Positions 3,960 through 45,530 of a stretch of 64,000 nt of DNA are shown in pieces. The DNA is taken from positions 6,944,001 to 7,008,000 of the forward strand of contig NZ_CP019082.1 of NCBI RefSeq assembly GCF_001956985.1, written 5' to 3'. The DNA is from Paludisphaera borealis. Lineage in GTDB: Bacteria; Planctomycetota; Planctomycetia; Isosphaerales; Isosphaeraceae. Both the position numbers and the translations under genes were made by a program. The notes below the pieces were generated by a model, which saw only the letters and a program-made list of their open reading frames with translations, ran no database searches and had not been told where the DNA came from. How positions within the stretch are numbered: position 1 is the stretch's first letter; each line of letters opens with the position of its first letter.

Positions 3960-4107
3960 GATCTTATGAATCGTCTCGGATCAAGCTGGTCCGAGTTTCG
4001 ATCACCCTCCCCGGTCACCGCCCGGCTTGCCGCCGCCATCCATTGATGATCGCGTCAGGCCGCCGGCCGCCCCGAGATCCGTCCCTCCTGCAACAGGTGA
4101 AGTGAAA

Positions 4108-5322
4108 ATGGCACGTCGTCGCGTCGGACTCTGGCTGGTCGGAGCGTTTGGCGGAGTGGGTACGACCATCACGCTCGGTCTTGCGACGATGGCTCGCGGC
4201 CTGGTGGATCAAACCGGCCTGGTCACGGATCTTCCCGACTTCCGTGAACTTTCGCTGCCGGAGCCGGGCGACTTCGTGGTCGGCGGCCACGAGATCCGGC
4301 GGACGTCGTTCCAAGAATCGGCCGAGGAGTTCCGCCGCAACACGGGGGTGTTCGACGCCTCGTGGCTGAGCGCCTGCCGCGACGACCTGGCCGCCGCCTC
4401 GTCGCGGGTCCGCCCCGGTCCCAAGCTGGGCCTCGGCCCGGCCATCGCCCGGCTGGCCGACTGGGAAACCGAATCCGAGCCCGCCACCGCCCGCCAGGCG
4501 ATCGACCGCATCAAGGCCGACATCGCAGCGTTCGTGAAAGCCGAGAAGATCGACCACCTGATCGTCCTCAACGTGGCCAGCACCGAGGCCCCGTTCGGCA
4601 TCGGCGAGCCGCACCAGACGATGGCCGCCCTGAACGGCTCGCTGTCGCGGACCGACGCCTTGATCCTGCCGGCGAGCAGCCACTACGCCCTCGCCGCCCT
4701 GGAAGAAGGCCACACGTATCTGAACTTCACCCCTAGCCTGGGCGCTTCGTTCCCCGCCGCCTGGGAGCTGGCCGAGACAACCGGCTCGCTGTTCGGCGGC
4801 AAGGACGGCAAGACCGGCGAGACGCTGATGAAGACTGTGCTCGCCCCGATGTTCGCCGCCCGCAACTTCAAGGTGATGAGCTGGGTCGGCCACAACATCT
4901 TCGGCAACCGTGACGGCGTGGTGCTCGACGATCCGAACAACAAGTCTTCGAAGGTCGAGACCAAGGACAAGGTGATCACCGAGATCCTCGGCTACAAGCC
5001 GGCCTCGGTCGTTTCGATCGAGTACGTCCCCGACATGGGCGACTGGAAGACGGCGTGGGACCACATCCACTTCAAGGGCTTCCTCGGAACCAAGATGGTC
5101 CTCCAGTTCATATGGCAAGGCTGCGACAGCCTGCTCGCCGCCCCGCTCGGCGTCGACCTCGCCCGCCTCGCCGACCTCGAAAAGCAGCGCGGCGGCAAGG
5201 GCCTGATGCGCCACCTGTCCTGCTTCTTCAAGGGCCCCGAAGGCGACGACGAGAACGATTTCTTCAAGCAGTACGCCCGACTCGAAGAATACGTCGCCTC
5301 GCTGCGGGCGAAGACGAAGTAA
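4108..5322 (+). CDS. Inositol-3-phosphate synthase (myo-inositol-1-phosphate synthase family)
   Basis: A 404-aa cytosolic enzyme of the family that cyclises glucose 6-phosphate to inositol phosphate using tightly bound NAD. The Gly-rich NAD motif VGAFGGVGTT lies at residues 9-20. Later segments typical of the family are LNVASTEAP, GGKDGKTGETLMKT, VLDDPNNKSSKVETKDK (the lysine-rich active-site loop) and KTAWDHIHFKGFLG. ATG 4108 is chosen because AGGTGAAG lies at 4095-4102; the frame is open further up from 4027 without a better site. It is the first gene of an operon with two TIM-barrel proteins and an EboC-like UbiA protein, so its cyclitol may feed a dedicated pathway rather than general phospholipid synthesis; that link is inference. 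Confidence 0.93.
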   Translation: MARRRVGLWLVGAFGGVGTTITLGLATMARGLVDQTGLVTDLPDFRELSLPEPGDFVVGGHEIRRTSFQESAEEFRRNTGVFDASWLSACRDDLAAASSRVRPGPKLGLGPAIARLADWETESEPATARQAIDRIKADIAAFVKAEKIDHLIVLNVASTEAPFGIGEPHQTMAALNGSLSRTDALILPASSHYALAALEEGHTYLNFTPSLGASFPAAWELAETTGSLFGGKDGKTGETLMKTVLAPMFAARNFKVMSWVGHNIFGNRDGVVLDDPNNKSSKVETKDKVITEILGYKPASVVSIEYVPDMGDWKTAWDHIHFKGFLGTKMVLQFIWQGCDSLLAAPLGVDLARLADLEKQRGGKGLMRHLSCFFKGPEGDDENDFFKQYARLEEYVASLRAKTK

Positions 5323-5380
5323 GGCCCTCCACCCGAGAAACAAGACTCGTTACATCCACCCCGCCGACGGATACTCGCCC

Positions 5381-6217
5381 GTGAAACTCGCTTTCAGCTC
5401 CAACGCGTATCTCCGCCATCCGTTCGACGAAACCGCGGAGCGGATCGCGGCGATCGGCTACCAGGGGCTCGAACTCCTGGCCGACGTGCCGCACGCCTGG
5501 CCGGCCGGCTTGCTGGAAGGCCCCAAGCGGGCCATCCGCGAGACGATGGCCAGGACCGGCTTGCAGTTCTCGAACGTCAACGCGTTCATGATGAACGCGG
5601 TCAACGACCACCGTCAGCCGTACTGGCATCCTTCCTTCATCGAGCCCGACCCGAACTACCGCCGGGTCCGGATCGATCACACCCGCCGCGCACTCGAACT
5701 CTGCGCCGAGCTGGGAGCGCCGCACATCACGACCGAGCCCGGCGGCCCCATCGCCCCCGGCCAGACGCGACAAGAGGCTCTCGACCTGTTCGTCGAGGTC
5801 CTCAAACCCCTGGCCGAGCACGCCGAAAAAGTCGGCGTCCTGCTCCTGATCGAGCCCGAGCCCGACCTGTTGCTCGAACGGACCGACCAGTACGTCGAAT
5901 TGGCCGACCGCGTGAATTCGCCGGCGCTGGGCCTGAACTTCGACGTCGGCCACGCCTACTGCATGAGCGAAGACCTGCCGAAAGCCATCGCCGCGCTCGC
6001 GCCTTACACGCGGCACTACCACCTGGAAGACATCGCCGCGACGCGGGTCCATCATCACCTGCCTCCCGGCGACGGCGCGATCGACTTCGCCGAGGTGATC
6101 GCCGCGATCCGCAAGACGGGCTACGACGGCTGGCTGACGGTCGAGCTCTATCCGTCCCAGGAGAACCCCGACGAGGCCGCTCGCCAGGCCTACAACGTCT
6201 TGAAGCCGCTGATCTGA
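5381..6217 (+). CDS. TIM-barrel sugar phosphate isomerase/epimerase-like protein
   Basis: A 278-aa xylose-isomerase-like TIM-barrel protein (AP_endonuc_2 superfamily). It opens MKLAFSSNAY and carries metal-ligand-type motifs LLIEPEPD (around residue 148), NFDVGHAYC (around 187) and YHLEDIAA (around 207), plus the C-terminal TVELYP strand. The start is GTG 5381. Its stop overlaps the ATG of the UbiA gene by one base (TGATG at 6215-6219), so the two are likely translationally coupled. Members of this family isomerise or epimerise phosphorylated sugars or inositols. Given the inositol-phosphate synthase 58 bp upstream, a cyclitol or derivative is the likely substrate, but the reaction cannot be named from sequence. 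Confidence 0.88.
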   Translation: MKLAFSSNAYLRHPFDETAERIAAIGYQGLELLADVPHAWPAGLLEGPKRAIRETMARTGLQFSNVNAFMMNAVNDHRQPYWHPSFIEPDPNYRRVRIDHTRRALELCAELGAPHITTEPGGPIAPGQTRQEALDLFVEVLKPLAEHAEKVGVLLLIEPEPDLLLERTDQYVELADRVNSPALGLNFDVGHAYCMSEDLPKAIAALAPYTRHYHLEDIAATRVHHHLPPGDGAIDFAEVIAAIRKTGYDGWLTVELYPSQENPDEAARQAYNVLKPLI

Positions 6218-7134
6218 TGCGACGATCCGTCTTCCCGCTGCTCCAGTTGATCCGACTCCCCAACGTTGCCGCCGCCGGGGCCGACAGCCTCGCCGGCTGG
6301 CTGCTCATCGGCGGCGCGCTGAACGCGCCAGCGCGCTGGCTGCCGCTGGTCGGCGCGTCAATGAGCCTGTACGCGGCGGGCATGGCGCTCAACGACTGGT
6401 TCGACGTCGAGGTCGACCGCCTCGAACGCCCCGCTCGCCCGCTCCCTTCCGGCCGCGTCTCGCCGCGCGTCGCCGCCGGGATCGGCTGGGGAGGGCTCGC
6501 GCTGGGCCTCTTGCTCGCCGCCGCCGGAGCAGGGGGGGCCGTCGCGACCCTGATCGTCGCCGCGCTCCTGGCGATCGCAATCGTCGGGTACAACGCGGGA
6601 CTCAAGCACACGATTCTCGGTCCCGAGGTTATGGGCTCGTGCCGGGGCCTCAACATGCTGCTGGGCATGAGCGCGGCGCCTGCCCTGGGAGGCCCCGCCG
6701 CGTGGCTGGCGGCCGGGTCGTTCGGCCTGTTCGTCGCCGGCGTGACCTGGATCAGTCGTTCCGAAACGAAGACGGGCGAAACCCGCAACCTGCTGATCGG
6801 CCTGGCGATCCAGAACCTGGCGTTCCTCGGGCTGGCCGGCGCGGCCCTCAGCCCCCGAAGGTTTCCTGCGCCGCCGGTCGATCCGCCGTTGATCCCGCTG
6901 GAAGGGCTTTTGGTCCTCGTCGTCGTCGCCCTGACGGTCAACCTGGCGGCCTCTCGCGCCCTAAGAGAGCCGTCGCCCCGATTCTTGCAAGGGGCCGTCA
7001 AGACGGGCGTGCTGTCCCTGGTCTGGATCGACGTGGCTCTCGTCGCCTCGATCCGGGGGCCGCAGGCCGCGCTCGCCGTCGCGCTCTTCTGGCCTCCAGC
7101 GTTCGTCCTGGCCCGCTGGCTCTACTCGACCTGA
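6217..7134 (+). CDS. UbiA-family prenyltransferase, EboC-like
   Basis: A 305-aa integral membrane protein with about eight or nine hydrophobic segments. The first polyprenyl-diphosphate-binding motif NDWFDVEVD lies at residues 59-67 and is followed by RPARPLPSGRVSP, as in UbiA enzymes. The segment MGSCRGLNMLLGM at about 139-151 and TWISRSETKTGE at about 172-183 are like those I know from EboC proteins rather than from UbiA or MenA. The second aspartate motif is weak, as in that subfamily. It overlaps the upstream isomerase by one base and is followed 15 bp later by another TIM-barrel gene. The inferred role is prenylation of a polar, possibly cyclitol-derived, head group in the membrane. Confidence 0.85.
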   Translation: MRRSVFPLLQLIRLPNVAAAGADSLAGWLLIGGALNAPARWLPLVGASMSLYAAGMALNDWFDVEVDRLERPARPLPSGRVSPRVAAGIGWGGLALGLLLAAAGAGGAVATLIVAALLAIAIVGYNAGLKHTILGPEVMGSCRGLNMLLGMSAAPALGGPAAWLAAGSFGLFVAGVTWISRSETKTGETRNLLIGLAIQNLAFLGLAGAALSPRRFPAPPVDPPLIPLEGLLVLVVVALTVNLAASRALREPSPRFLQGAVKTGVLSLVWIDVALVASIRGPQAALAVALFWPPAFVLARWLYST

Positions 7135-7149
7135 GGGAGGACGCCCGAG

Positions 7150-7986
7150 ATGCGTCTGGGATACAACACGAACGGACTCGCCCACCACCGGCTGACCGAC
7201 GCCGTCGCGCTGCTGGCTGACGAGGGCTACCAGAGCGTGGCGATCACGCTCGACGCCGCCGCGCTCGATCCCTACGACGACCCGTCGGATCTCGCCCGCC
7301 AGACGGCCGAGATCCGCCGCCTGCTCGACCGCCACGGCCTCGGCCGGGTGGTCGAGACCGGCGCGCGTTTCCTGCTCAACCCCCGGCTCAAGCACGACCC
7401 GACCCTGATGGACCCCGACCCCGCCCGCCGGGCCGTCCGGGTCGACTTCCTCCGCCGCGCCGTCGACCTGGCCGTGGAGCTGGATTCGGGCGTCGTCTCG
7501 TTCTGGTCGGGGATTCTCCGCGACGGCTCGTCCGAGGACGCCGCGATGGAACGACTGGCCAAGGCGCTCGGCCCCGTGATCACCCACGCCGAGACGCGCG
7601 GGGTTCGGCTGGCGTTCGAGCCCGAGCCGGGCATGTTCATCGACACGTTCAACCGCTTCGATCAGCTCGACCAGCGGATTCGACATCCCCTCTTCGACCT
7701 GACCGTCGACCTTGGGCACGTCCACTGCATCGAGTCCGGCGACGTCGCCGAACACGTCCGCCAGTGGGGGTCGCGAATCGCCAACGTCCACGTCGAAGAT
7801 ATGAATCGAGGTGTGCATGAACACCTCATGTTCGGCGAGGGGACGATGGACTTCCCGCCGATCCTCGAAGCCCTCCGGTCGGTCGGCTACTCGGGCGGCT
7901 TGCACGTCGAACTCAGCCGACATAGCCAGATGGGGGCCGACGCCGTGCGTCGGGCGCGGGATTTTTTGACGCCGATGCTCGACTGA
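7150..7986 (+). CDS. TIM-barrel sugar phosphate isomerase/epimerase-like protein (second copy in operon)
   Basis: A 278-aa xylose-isomerase-like TIM-barrel protein starting MRLGYNTNGLAHH, with GGGAGG just upstream (7135-7140). Motifs LAFEPEPGMFIDTF (around 155), LTVDLGHVHC (around 185) and NVHVEDMNRG (around 214) match the metal-binding strands of the superfamily. It is the same length as the product of 5381-6217 and shares its general plan but is clearly diverged, so the two are probably not recent duplicates. It is the last gene of the inositol-phosphate synthase operon. Proteins of this fold accompany EboC in other bacteria (EboE); whether this one is the counterpart is not certain. Confidence 0.87.
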   Translation: MRLGYNTNGLAHHRLTDAVALLADEGYQSVAITLDAAALDPYDDPSDLARQTAEIRRLLDRHGLGRVVETGARFLLNPRLKHDPTLMDPDPARRAVRVDFLRRAVDLAVELDSGVVSFWSGILRDGSSEDAAMERLAKALGPVITHAETRGVRLAFEPEPGMFIDTFNRFDQLDQRIRHPLFDLTVDLGHVHCIESGDVAEHVRQWGSRIANVHVEDMNRGVHEHLMFGEGTMDFPPILEALRSVGYSGGLHVELSRHSQMGADAVRRARDFLTPMLD

Positions 7987-14457: not shown

Positions 14458-15279
14458 CTAGGAGCGGGGGACGGCGGATCGATCGAACCGCGCGCATTGG
14501 CTGAAGAACGCCAGCGGGTTGTCGTGGACGACCGTGCGGATCAAGGCGTCGTCGTGGCCGCGGCGCTTCATCTCGAAGATGAACTCGGGGACGGCCAGGG
14601 GGTCGCTGTGCCCCCAGTCGCCGGCCGAGTTCACCATGATCCGCGAAGCGCCGTACATCTCGATCATGTCGGCCGCGCGGGCGGGGGTGCACTTGGTGGT
14701 CGGATAGAGCGTCATGCCGACCCAGTGGCCGGCGTCGAGGGCCAACCGGATCGTGTGCTCCTCGACGTGATCGATGCAGATCCGCTCGGGCTTGAGCCGC
14801 CGATCGCCCTTGAGCATGTCGAGGATCATCCGCGTCCCCTGGTACTTGTCGGCCAGGTGGGGCGTGTGCACCAGGATCAGTTCGTTGGTGCGCGCGGCGA
14901 GGTCGAGGTGTTCAAGGAACACGGTCGACTCGTTCTTGGTGTTCTTGTTGAGCCCGATCTCGCCGATCCCCAGCACGCCCGGGCGGTCGAGGAACTCGGG
15001 GATCATGGCGATCACCTGGCGCGACAGCGCGACGTCCTCGGCCTCCTTGGCGTTGATGCAGAGCCAGCAGTAGTGGGCGATCCCGTACGCCGCCGCCCGC
15101 TTGCTCTCGAAGTCGATGAGCTGGCGAAAGTAGTCGCGGAACCCCTCGACCCCCGAGCGGTCGAACCCCGCCCAGAACGCCGGCTCGCTGACCAGGACGC
15201 ACCCCGCGACCGCCATCCGCTTGTAGTCGTCGGTCGTCCGGGAAACCATGTGGATGTGCGGGTCGATGTACGAACTCAT
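14458..15279 (-). CDS. TatD-family metal-dependent hydrolase, EboB-like
   Basis: A 273-aa amidohydrolase-fold protein. It opens [19 protein letters not shown], with the H-x-H metal motif, and carries [30 protein letters not shown] and [16 protein letters not shown]. These segments, notably [10 protein letters not shown] and the final DWG-SDPLAVP, are those I recognise from EboB rather than from housekeeping TatD nucleases. ATG 15279 is preceded by AGGA at about 15290-15293; an alternative ATG at 15303 would add 8 residues. The gene is isolated from the EboC-like gene by 7 kb and on the opposite strand. In other bacteria EboB acts with EboC in export of a metabolite to the periplasm; involvement here is inferred. 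Confidence 0.86.
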
Positions 15280-21314: not shown

Positions 21315-21378
21315 CCGCCGGAGCGGTCGTCGGATGATTCTTCAGGTTGCAACGTCAAGCGAGACGGACGGGTTCCCC

Positions 21379-22284
21379 ATGATTCCTTGCATCAGCCAGG
21401 CCACGACGATGAGCACCTCGCTGGAGGCCGACCTGACGGCCTACCCGAAGAGCGGCTGGACCACGATCGAGCTCTGGCTGACGAAGGTCGAGACGTATCT
21501 CCGCGACCACACCGTCGCCGACCTGCGCGCGCTGCTGGATGCGAGCGGACTGCGGGCGGCGGCGGCCTCGGCCCAGGGGGGGCTGCTGCTCTCGCGCGGG
21601 GCGGAGCGCGCGGCCCACTGGGAACACTTTCGGAGCCGGCTCGCCGTGCTCCGCGAGCTGGACGTCCCCACGCTGGTCGTCGCGGTCGATTTCAACCGTG
21701 AGCTGAAGGCCGAGGACTACCCGCTCGCCGCGGCCTCGCTGGCCGAGGCGGGCGAGCTGGCCGGCTCGTTCGGGGTCCGGCTGGCGGTCGAGTTCCAGAA
21801 AGGCGCCGCGTTCTGCTCCAGCCTCGACACCACGCTGGCCCTGATCGCGCAGTGCCGGTCGCCCCACGTCGGCGTTTGCCTCGACCTGTTCCACTACTAC
21901 ACGGGGCCGAGCAAGTTCGAGGACTTCGCCTACCTCGACCGCAACAACCTCGCCTGGGTCCAGATCTGCGACCTGAGCGGCACGCCTCGCGAGTTGGCCG
22001 GCGACGGCGACCGGATCTTTCCGGGCGAGGGCGACTTTCAGATCGAACCGATCCTCGACCACTTGGGCGCGATCGGCTACGACGGCCCGGTGTCGCTCGA
22101 AGTACTCAACCCGCACCTGTGGCGGATTCCCGTCGACCGCGTCGCCGACATGGGTTATCAGGCGGTCCGTCGCACTCTGGGACGCTGGAACCGCGCCGAG
22201 CCGGAGGGTTCGACCGAGGCCGCCTCGTCTCGACCCGACGCCGAAGCCGAGGCCCAGTCCGGCGGAATTCGGGGAGGGCTCTGA
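21379..22284 (+). CDS. TIM-barrel sugar phosphate isomerase/epimerase-like protein
   Basis: A 301-aa xylose-isomerase-like protein starting MIPCISQATTMSTSL. Metal-site strands are LAVEFQKGAAFCSS (near 135), VGVCLDLFHYYTGP (near 165) and WVQICDLSGTPRE (near 195), and the final EVLNPHLW strand has the usual glutamate. The frame is open back to ATG 21334, but the homologous start of this fold is at or near 21379; no strong ribosome-binding site decides it. The last 25 residues are an Ala/Glu/Ser-rich tail. Substrate unknown. It is followed directly (2 bp) by a small membrane protein gene, so the two are co-transcribed. Confidence 0.83.
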   Translation: MIPCISQATTMSTSLEADLTAYPKSGWTTIELWLTKVETYLRDHTVADLRALLDASGLRAAAASAQGGLLLSRGAERAAHWEHFRSRLAVLRELDVPTLVVAVDFNRELKAEDYPLAAASLAEAGELAGSFGVRLAVEFQKGAAFCSSLDTTLALIAQCRSPHVGVCLDLFHYYTGPSKFEDFAYLDRNNLAWVQICDLSGTPRELAGDGDRIFPGEGDFQIEPILDHLGAIGYDGPVSLEVLNPHLWRIPVDRVADMGYQAVRRTLGRWNRAEPEGSTEAASSRPDAEAEAQSGGIRGGL

Positions 22285-43265: not shown

Positions 43266-45530
43266 TCAGGCCGGCTCGGCGACTCGTACAGGCTCGCACG
43301 TCGCGGCCGGAAGAAAGTCGATGTCTCCCGATACGACGTCGTACACCGCCCCGACGATCGCGATTCGCTCCTCCCGGACGAGACCGTCGAGAGTCTCACT
43401 TTGTTGCCGGATGGCCTCAACCACGCGTACCACGTTTCGGCGGGCCACGGAGTCGACGAACGATTCCCTCTCGCTCGCCGGCAATTGTTCGAGGCTCAGA
43501 CGATCGAGCGGTTCGACCGATTGCTGAATCTCGCTGATGATGGGTTCGAGATGCTGACATCCCGTGGCGGTGGCGGCGGACTCTCCAGAGCAGGCGAGGT
43601 TGACGGCCGCCGTCACGGCGCCGCACCGCGTATGACCCATGACCAGGATCAGCTTCACCCCGGCCGCGGCGCACGCGTATTCCAAACTTCCTAGCACTTT
43701 CCGGCTCGTGATGTTTCCCGCGACGCGTACGCTGAAGATGTCCCCCACCCCCGTGTCGAAGATCAGCTCGGCGGGCGCGCGGGAGTCGATGCAACTGAGC
43801 ACGGCGGCCAGGGGATGCTGACCCTTCGCCGTATTCTGGACCTGGCGGCCGAAGTCGCGAGTCAGGTGTTGACCATTCTGGAACCGCTCGTGGCCGTCCT
43901 TCAAGATCTGCAAGACCTGCTGCGGCGTGAGCGCGCTCTGGATCTCGCGGGTGGAGTAATCCACGTACTGGGTCCGGTCCTGCATCTGATACTGGCTCTT
44001 GAACCCTCGCAAGCTCACTTCGACTCCGCGCGCCGGCCCCGTCTTGTTCTCGAAGTCGCGAATCAGGTCGAGCAAATCCGAGTCGATGTAGTCGGTCCTC
44101 CGGGCGTCGAGCAGGACGTGGCTGCCGCGAGGCAACTCGTCGAGCGCGCGAGTCAGCGATGCCCGATTGAGGAAGCTGACCTGATCGGCCAGCTTGATGT
44201 GGACCACCTCGCCGCCCAGATGCTTCTCCACGATGCGCCGGATCGGTCGTCGCACGTTGTTGCTGAGTATGAAGCCGATGCTCGTCGCCAGCCCGATCAG
44301 GACGCCGACCAGCAAATCGGTAAGGACGATGGAGGCCACCGTCACCGCGAAGGGGATGAATTGAGAGCGTCCCTGGCTCCACATCTGCTTGACCAGCACC
44401 GGGCTGGCCAGCTTGACCCCCGTGATCAGCAGAATCGCCGCGAGGCAGGACAGCGGGATCTGGTTCAACCATGTGGGAAACAAGAGAATGCTGACCAGCA
44501 GCAAGACGCCGTGGAAGATCGTCGAGAGTTTCGTCTGTCCCCCCGCATTGATGTTCACGGAGCTACGGGCGATCACCGACGTGACCGGCAATCCGCCGAT
44601 CATCCCGAGCGCCACGTTCCCGACCCCCTGAGCCAGAAGTTCCCGGCTCGGAGGCGAGGTGCGCTGCTGCGGATCGAGCTTGTCGACCGCTTCCAGGTTC
44701 AACAGCGTCTCCAGCGAAGCCACGGCGGCGACCGTCACGGCGGAGGTGTAGACAGCCGGGTTCGACAACATGGAGAAATCCGGGAACTGCAGATACCCGA
44801 GGCTCGCCGCCAGGCCGTCGGCCACCGGCACTTGCACGAGATGGCTGGCCTCGATGACCCATTGGCCGCCGACCCGCCGGAACAGAAGGCTCATCCCGAC
44901 GCCGAGGATCACCACCAGCAAAGGCGCGGGAACGAGCGATTTCTTACCTGGCTTCCACTTGCTGAAGAGGACCAGCAACGCGATCGAAACCAGACCGATC
45001 GAGGCCGCGCCGGGATGGACGTCGCCGAGCAGTCGACCGATCTCGGAGAGCGTGTTCTCATGGTCCGGCTGCTGGAAGCTCATGTCTCCTTCAGGGTCGG
45101 GGTCGTGGCCCAGGACGTGGGGGATTTGCTTCAGAATCAGGATCACGCCGATGGCCGCCAGCAGCCCCTTGACCACGCTCGACGGAAAGAAGGCCGCGAT
45201 GAAGCCCGCGCGGATCGATCCCAGGACGATCTGGATCAGGCCGGCGACGACGACCGCCACCTGGAACGCCTGGAACGATCCCAGGAGGGCGATCTGAGCG
45301 GCCACGATGGTGGTCAACCCCGCGGCCGGTCCGCTGATGCTGGTCTGCGAGCCGCTCAGCAGGCCCACCAAGATCCCGCCGACGATTCCGGCCAGCAACC
45401 CCGAAAACAGCGGGGCGTCCGACGCCAACGCCACCCCCAGGCACAACGGCAATGCAACAAAAAAGACGACGAACCCGGAGTTCAGGTCGCGCGTCACGGT
45501 CGATCGTAGCTGTCCCGTCTGGTATGTCAT
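43266..45530 (-). CDS. SulP-family anion transporter fused to a beta-carbonic anhydrase
   Basis: A 754-aa fusion. Residues 1 to about 410 are a SulP transporter with ten or more helices, including SGSQTSISGPAAGLTTIVAA and MIGGLPVTSVIARSSVNINA. Residues about 430-520 are a STAS-like domain (FLNRASLTRALDELPRGSHV). Residues 533-754 are a beta-carbonic anhydrase: zinc ligands C580 (in SCIDSR, with D582-R584 dyad), H633 and C636 (in GHTRC). All ligands are present, so the enzyme should be active. The likely role is coupled bicarbonate uptake and CO2/HCO3- interconversion, though SulP substrates include sulfate. ATG 45530 is the start. The gene is a single unit. Confidence 0.93.
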   Translation of the reverse strand: MTYQTGQLRSTVTRDLNSGFVVFFVALPLCLGVALASDAPLFSGLLAGIVGGILVGLLSGSQTSISGPAAGLTTIVAAQIALLGSFQAFQVAVVVAGLIQIVLGSIRAGFIAAFFPSSVVKGLLAAIGVILILKQIPHVLGHDPDPEGDMSFQQPDHENTLSEIGRLLGDVHPGAASIGLVSIALLVLFSKWKPGKKSLVPAPLLVVILGVGMSLLFRRVGGQWVIEASHLVQVPVADGLAASLGYLQFPDFSMLSNPAVYTSAVTVAAVASLETLLNLEAVDKLDPQQRTSPPSRELLAQGVGNVALGMIGGLPVTSVIARSSVNINAGGQTKLSTIFHGVLLLVSILLFPTWLNQIPLSCLAAILLITGVKLASPVLVKQMWSQGRSQFIPFAVTVASIVLTDLLVGVLIGLATSIGFILSNNVRRPIRRIVEKHLGGEVVHIKLADQVSFLNRASLTRALDELPRGSHVLLDARRTDYIDSDLLDLIRDFENKTGPARGVEVSLRGFKSQYQMQDRTQYVDYSTREIQSALTPQQVLQILKDGHERFQNGQHLTRDFGRQVQNTAKGQHPLAAVLSCIDSRAPAELIFDTGVGDIFSVRVAGNITSRKVLGSLEYACAAAGVKLILVMGHTRCGAVTAAVNLACSGESAATATGCQHLEPIISEIQQSVEPLDRLSLEQLPASERESFVDSVARRNVVRVVEAIRQQSETLDGLVREERIAIVGAVYDVVSGDIDFLPAATCEPVRVAEPA

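Follow-up and report, generated by a model that had tools for sequence, protein, structure and literature searches.

Four adjacent genes of Paludisphaera borealis (Planctomycetota, class Planctomycetia, family Isosphaeraceae) very probably form the core of a variant of the ebo pathway, in which a myo-inositol-3-phosphate synthase (MIPS) and a xylose-isomerase-like TIM-barrel protein (TIM2) stand in for the dehydroquinate-synthase-like cyclase EboD, and another such TIM-barrel protein (TIM1) stands in for EboE. The genes occupy positions 4108–7986 of the window, a stretch of 64,000 nucleotides of contig NZ_CP019082.1 (RefSeq GCF_001956985.1, positions 6,944,001 to 7,008,000), and are arranged in the order MIPS, TIM1, UbiA, TIM2 as four open reading frames on the + strand. 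The initial annotation had described this operon together with a TGATG coupling between its second and third genes. All four frames are found at those positions with agreeing Pfam domains, and the TGA of TIM1 overlaps the ATG of UbiA at 6215–6219. The grouping is not due to chance, given that both the adjacency of MIPS and UbiA and the set of four genes recur in relatives (see below).

MIPS and TIM2 are exchanged for EboD across genomes

Gene presence was scored in 392 Planctomycetota genomes, 40 of which, P. borealis included, belong to its class. The E-value limits were chosen by us (MIPS 1e-30, EboD 1e-55, EboB 1e-25, TIM2 1e-20); the limit for EboD was set beyond the level of the P. borealis AroB protein, and weaker EboD matches were followed only in the P. 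borealis genome. All 40 class genomes contain the UbiA gene, and all 40 contain EboB. Each of them has exactly one of the two cyclases, MIPS in 27 and EboD in 13 (Fisher p = 8.3e-11). TIM2 accompanies MIPS in all 27 and is absent from the 13 EboD genomes. EboE scores over its cut-off in 34 of the 40, and the six genomes lacking it (G000, G377, G167, G353, G357 and G369) are exactly the six in which TIM1 stands beside UbiA; a weak TIM match (25% identity) beside UbiA in a genome with EboD and EboE (G291, locus L071) was not scored as TIM1. These exclusive presence patterns indicate one exchange between MIPS plus TIM2 and EboD, and another between TIM1 and EboE. The suggestion of the initial annotation that an inositol-phosphate synthase fills the EboD slot is therefore upheld for the cyclase itself and amended in two respects: TIM2 comes along with MIPS, and TIM1 takes part in an exchange with EboE.

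Over the whole phylum sample, MIPS was detected in 196 genomes and EboD in 83, with two genomes containing both. When the sample is counted by GTDB family, MIPS alone is found in 53, EboD alone in 21, both in three and neither in 21 (p = 4e-7). A cyclase is present in 260 of the 287 genomes with EboB (MIPS only 182, EboD only 76, both 2, neither 27) and in 17 of the 105 genomes without EboB (MIPS 12, EboD 5). By these occurrence counts, MIPS in Planctomycetota behaves like an ebo gene. The two genomes with both cyclases (G106 and G153) belong to one family (f46); the MIPS hits there, at E = 2.4e-60 and 6.6e-42, are some of the weakest and may represent a different enzyme. UbiA matches outside the class (226/392) include other UbiA enzymes, several of which in our reading adjoin RseP- and DXR-like genes, and are not a count of EboC.

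Inositol has many other uses, and MIPS could supply it for a phosphatidylinositol-type lipid or an osmolyte, its adjacency to EboC then reflecting shared regulation or accident. Such a role would fit the separate location of MIPS and UbiA in 13 of the 27 MIPS-bearing class genomes, as well as the 12 of 196 MIPS genomes that have no EboB match. However, a MIPS serving some other function would have no reason to shun genomes with EboD, and 184 of the 196 MIPS genomes do have EboB. TIM2 is found wherever MIPS is found in the class, and MIPS is located among ebo genes in Streptomyces and Gemmatirosa as well. An independent use of inositol is thus considered unlikely.

The UbiA protein is of the EboC type

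Compared with all UbiA families, the UbiA protein of the window scores highest with the NCBIfam models EboC (NF035940, 181.6 bits) and SCO3242 (NF045897, 181.1 bits). The next-best family, geranylgeranylglycerol-phosphate transferase, follows more than 110 bits behind at 68.2 bits. Both leading scores lie under the curated cut-offs, 250 for EboC and 260 for SCO3242. The EboC cut-off appears too tight here, because the EboC of a six-gene EboD-A-B-E-C-F operon of the same phylum (L103), whose identity is proven by its operon, reaches only 101.4 bits on the EboC model; exclusion of the window protein from the EboC type on the grounds of its sub-cut-off scores was rejected on this control. The UbiA protein of a Streptomyces locus (L114) passes the SCO3242 cut-off with 348.1 bits.

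Proteins from EboD-type and MIPS-type systems were aligned in 49 rows. The M and R of MGSCRGLNMLLGM are kept in 49/49 rows and the E of TWISRSETKTGE in 48/49. The first Asp motif (NDxxDxxxDxxERP), MxxCR, and RxE in place of the second Asp motif are common almost throughout the alignment and are all present in the window protein. The segments that had earlier been associated with EboC are thus conserved in EboC proteins from EboD operons as well. The window protein is the sole good EboC match in its genome and, by comparison with these sequences, is shown to be the EboC of this genome; it is an EboC-type protein and not a curated EboC.

It is highly improbable that the protein serves as a standard prenyltransferase of quinone, heme or ether-lipid synthesis, in an operon unrelated to ebo. 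Membership in the UbiA superfamily (PF01040) and the 68-bit match to the geranylgeranylglycerol-phosphate transferase model are what such an assignment could draw on, but the EboC and SCO3242 models are far ahead of all others and the protein falls outside the quinone and heme enzymes, a grouping that the initial annotation had named as grounds for refutation. The genome also contains EboA, EboB and EboF, and in the family both EboB and EboA are often located within a few kb of the operon.

Gene neighbourhoods in related genomes

Within the family, the UbiA gene is present in 44 of 45 genomes, P. borealis included, and neighbourhoods were inspected at 41 of the 43 other loci. TIM1 is directly upstream of UbiA at 37 of the 38 loci with enough flanking sequence, MIPS is upstream at 21/34, TIM2 is downstream at 23/40, and the four genes are found together at 20/34. 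Of the 27 loci with 8.5 kb of flank, 18 have EboB downstream in the opposite orientation and 10 have EboA. In the class, 14 of the 27 genomes with MIPS have it on the same strand as UbiA and no more than ∼1 kb upstream. Conservation of the inositol-phosphate synthase beside EboC-type genes in related genomes, on which the initial annotation depended, is therefore seen in both the class and the family. Genomes from other families of the phylum (G222 and G012) show the order MIPS-EboB-TIM1-UbiA, with EboF downstream.

A gene for phosphoglucomutase/phosphomannomutase is located just upstream of MIPS-UbiA at 10 class loci (L054, L055, L057–L059, L061, L062, L064, L066 and L067). The same gene directly precedes UbiA at two EboD-type loci (L038 and L068), where MIPS is absent. 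Since this gene adjoins UbiA in both types, the MIPS-type and the EboD-type systems may both draw on glucose phosphates.

Genome contigs were also scanned with the EboB alignment, which returned at least 80 loci. Their record titles are nearly all from Planctomycetota, the exceptions being one Bacteroidales and one 'uncultured bacterium', so that the scan says nothing about the spread of ebo over phyla. Among the 80 matches listed, EboD is present at 9 and only EboB or EboA-EboB is visible at 59.

Some loci deviate in gene content. At five of them (L128, L141, L142, L145 and L146), a distantly EboF-like protein (25–29% identity) follows UbiA, and TIM2 is missing or located further on; the EboF-like protein may be an additional phosphatase-like component of the operon. 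In G222 (L097), UbiA and EboF of the ebo-like operon are separated by a DNA methylase gene (PF01555) and a second, unassigned gene, perhaps a restriction-modification pair.

Other ebo genes in the P. borealis genome

A TatD-like gene located 6.5 kb downstream of the operon, which the initial annotation did not mention in connection with it, is EboB, as judged by alignment: its product is 62–65% identical to the EboB proteins from L102 and L103, both six-gene ebo operons, and 55 columns are invariant in an alignment of 13 EboB sequences. EboA was sought within the window and nothing credible was found there; it is encoded at C1:6926010-6926294, ∼22 kb before the operon and ∼18 kb before the start of the window, with 69% identity over 98 residues to EboA of a genus mate. 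EboF is located at C1:1086334 and is 47% identical to EboF of L103.

A search of the P. borealis genome for EboD gave a sole match at E ≤ 0.001, which is AroB (379.2 bits, over the AroB cut-off of 305). A hidden EboD in this genome was accordingly rejected. With the EboE model, the only match in the genome is TIM1 (23 bits), and no canonical EboE was found. EboA, EboB and EboF are thus present, and EboD and EboE are not. The system is referred to as a variant rather than a member of ebo because EboD is lacking and its place is held by MIPS and TIM2.

Plasmid loci outside the class

MIPS is also found among ebo genes on plasmids from outside the class. The plasmid of Streptomyces sp. NBC_00046 contains, in this order, MIPS, an SCO3242-family UbiA protein (348 bits, over the cut-off), TIM2, an EboA domain, EboB, EboE and EboF. 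The same set is present on the plasmid of Streptomyces sp. NBC_01450, where TIM2 and the EboA domain (153.9 bits) share one reading frame of 503 residues (L113:9873-11381), physically tying TIM2 to an ebo protein. Plasmid 2 of Gemmatirosa kalamazoonensis contains EboE, EboA, EboB, EboF, UbiA, MIPS and TIM2. TIM2 of the window is 46–48% identical to the TIM2 proteins of these plasmids (47% for NBC_00046). An EboD query against 18-kb stretches of the three loci found none.

Evolution of EboC and MIPS

In the EboC tree, proteins from EboD-type and MIPS-type systems are interleaved, with five changes of cyclase on the best tree and five to six in bootstraps; strongly supported branches force one change only. 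A single clade of EboD-type EboC was rejected (approximately unbiased (AU) test, p = 2.4e-5), on a tree that contains long branches. As EboD-type EboC proteins do not form one clade, the same EboC lineage appears to work with either cyclase. The MIPS tree mostly tracks families, and MIPS proteins encoded beside UbiA and away from it belong to one lineage. From this pattern, MIPS may have come first in the class, with EboD arriving later in some lines, a direction that is not established.

Several observations, besides the sub-cut-off scores of the UbiA protein, weigh against an ebo variant based on MIPS. MIPS is separated from UbiA in nearly half of the MIPS-bearing class genomes, as noted above, and it is present in the flanks of only one of the 80 listed matches of the EboB scan. 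EboB occurs with neither cyclase in 27 of the 287 EboB genomes and with both in 2. Restricting the EboC tree to strongly supported branches leaves one independent pair that differs in cyclase (the best tree gives five), which is not enough for a lineage-corrected p value. The plasmid evidence comprises three loci inspected of seven matching records; these are unannotated, so that the gene calls are ours, and EboD was sought only in the 18-kb stretches. Finally, the assayed relatives of EboC farnesylate quinoline acids, and the available part of that report lists no cyclitol among the substrates (PMC9235831).

Enzymes of the operon and the proposed pathway

Both Pfam domains of MIPS score over the gathering threshold, and the nearest solved relative is 1u1i (E = 1.9e-85). 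Another member of the MIPS family, which makes a five-membered cyclitol phosphate (6k96), is matched at only E = 1.7e-6. MIPS Lys-286 and Lys-375, which are presumed to be catalytic, match the two lysines that were mutated in chains 3qvw and 3qvx and are invariant in 14 cluster MIPS proteins. TIM1 and TIM2 are both predicted as confident TIM barrels (predicted local distance difference test, pLDDT, 94.8 and 95.7, respectively). The first Foldseek matches are D-tagatose 3-epimerase for TIM1 and UlaE for TIM2, placing both with the ketose-3-epimerase group and indicating no specific reaction. Each protein keeps an invariant Glu, Asp, His and Glu where the metal site is expected, and these are taken to be the metal ligands. 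TIM1 also gives a weak match to the EboE model (24.9 bits).

The comparisons document exchanges of genes; the reactions that would connect the products are inferred. MIPS would convert glucose 6-phosphate to 1D-myo-inositol 3-phosphate with NAD+, and TIM2, as a ketose-epimerase-like metal enzyme, might alter this cyclitol or its keto form. TIM1 may, like EboE, perform a further isomerisation or dehydration, and EboB and EboF could hydrolyse an intermediate. At the membrane, EboC would then join a prenyl chain to the putative acceptor. This would lead to a prenylated cyclitol or a derivative, with the part in export or in the membrane that has been suggested for ebo. The prenylated or exported inositol derivative put forward in the initial annotation is likewise hypothetical. 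Where EboD is present, the ring would instead be made by the dehydroquinate-synthase-like cyclase.

There is a real possibility, as a sub-case of the ebo variant proposed here, that MIPS-type and EboD-type systems share their downstream enzymes and differ in product, EboC taking whichever ring is offered. MIPS retains the phosphate and all hydroxyls, whereas EboD-like cyclases are expected to lose the phosphate and leave a ketone, and TIM2 occurs only alongside MIPS in the class. A permissive EboC would also agree with the finding that its relatives took 6 of the 14 aromatic substrates tested (PMC9235831). On the other hand, the interleaving of the EboC types, the rejection of a single EboD clade and the likeness of the motifs leave no adaptation of EboC to its cyclase visible, and TIM2 could be the extra step that lets both routes converge. 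Convergence is itself conceivable, with EboD on one side and MIPS plus TIM2 on the other as two unrelated routes to one cyclitol precursor, though this proposal is tentative. If the two routes lead to one precursor, EboD would take glucose 6-phosphate, as 2-deoxy-scyllo-inosose synthase does, rather than the sedoheptulose 7-phosphate suggested in 2016. The product of the ebo systems in many bacterial phyla and in some algal plastids would then be a prenylated compound with a six-carbon cyclitol as its core. The phosphoglucomutase gene next to UbiA in both types bears on this reading.

Relation to known systems

An isoprenoid-cyclitol product has been proposed for ebo, with sedoheptulose 7-phosphate suggested for EboD (Yurchenko et al., 2016; PMC5133447), and in Nostoc the export of the scytonemin monomer depends on ebo genes (Klicki et al., 2018; PMC6282210). 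According to the former study, eboD is lacking in two of three Planctomycetes; the available portion of its text does not mention inositol. No description of a link between MIPS and ebo was found in open-licence literature, which is no proof of absence. The P. borealis system, with MIPS and TIM2 for EboD and TIM1 for EboE, would be a new form of the known ebo system.

The canonical eboABCDEF cluster (EDB; PMC5133447, PMC6282210) resembles the P. borealis system in that an EboC-type UbiA protein occurs with EboA, EboB and EboF in the same genome and some of these genes cluster together, and the two also share a predicted cyclitol-forming cyclase and a xylose-isomerase-like TIM protein in the place of EboE. 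They differ in that the P. borealis cyclase appears to be MIPS, unrelated to the dehydroquinate-synthase-like EboD, and is accompanied by the extra TIM2, that the shorter TIM1 replaces EboE, and that the genes are scattered with only MIPS-TIM1-EboC-TIM2 forming an operon.

A pairing of MIPS with an EboC-like UbiA protein is also found in the calcium-dependent antibiotic (CDA) cluster of Streptomyces coelicolor, where the successively numbered SCO3242 and SCO3243 are described as a putative transferase and a myo-inositol phosphate synthase (PMC3610822). The plasmid relatives of this pair additionally have TIM2 and EboA, EboB, EboE and EboF. Unlike the P. borealis operon, the Streptomyces loci retain canonical EboE and are without TIM1, and the UbiA protein of the window scores below the SCO3242 cut-off. 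In the BE-40644 pathway of Actinoplanes (PMC5133447), a sugar phosphate cyclase and a UbiA-superfamily prenyltransferase likewise lead to a prenylated cyclitol, the kind of product presumed for P. borealis. There, in the account given by that article, the cyclase is a 2-epi-5-epi-valiolone synthase and the UbiA protein is not EboC (PMC5133447).

The ebo genes are distributed over many bacterial phyla and algal plastids, and a natural swap of the cyclase to one of well-known chemistry would provide a clue to their product, pointing to a cyclitol derived from glucose 6-phosphate as the starting block. The swap would also explain the eboD-less Planctomycetes noted in 2016 and connect the Streptomyces SCO3242/SCO3243 gene pair to ebo. 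Inositol labelling would be a route toward finding the ebo product.

Features of the window

The longest frame of MIPS begins at a TTG at 4027. The ATG at 4108 agrees with near relatives (L119 and L126), which likewise begin with MARRRVGLWLVG. The operon is flanked upstream by a photolyase gene on the opposite strand and downstream by a gene for a DUF1559-type protein.

Table 1. Positions of the ebo-related genes in the window
Gene product	Position	Strand	Remarks
MIPS (myo-inositol-3-phosphate synthase)	4108-5322	+	PF07994 154.5 bits, PF01658 118.6 bits
TIM1, xylose-isomerase-like TIM barrel	5381-6217	+	GTG start; PF01261 166 bits
UbiA-superfamily membrane protein, EboC type	6217-7134	+	PF01040; EboC and SCO3242 models
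TIM2, xylose-isomerase-like TIM barrel	7150-7986	+	PF01261 143.2 bits
EboB, TatD-like metal-dependent hydrolase	14461-15279	-	PF01026; alignment with operon EboB

Another PF01261 TIM barrel is encoded at 21334–22284 (+ strand), after a class II tRNA synthetase gene, and is 27% identical to TIM2 over part of its length. At 43266–45530 (- strand), a carbonic anhydrase domain is fused to a transporter of the sulfate permease family.

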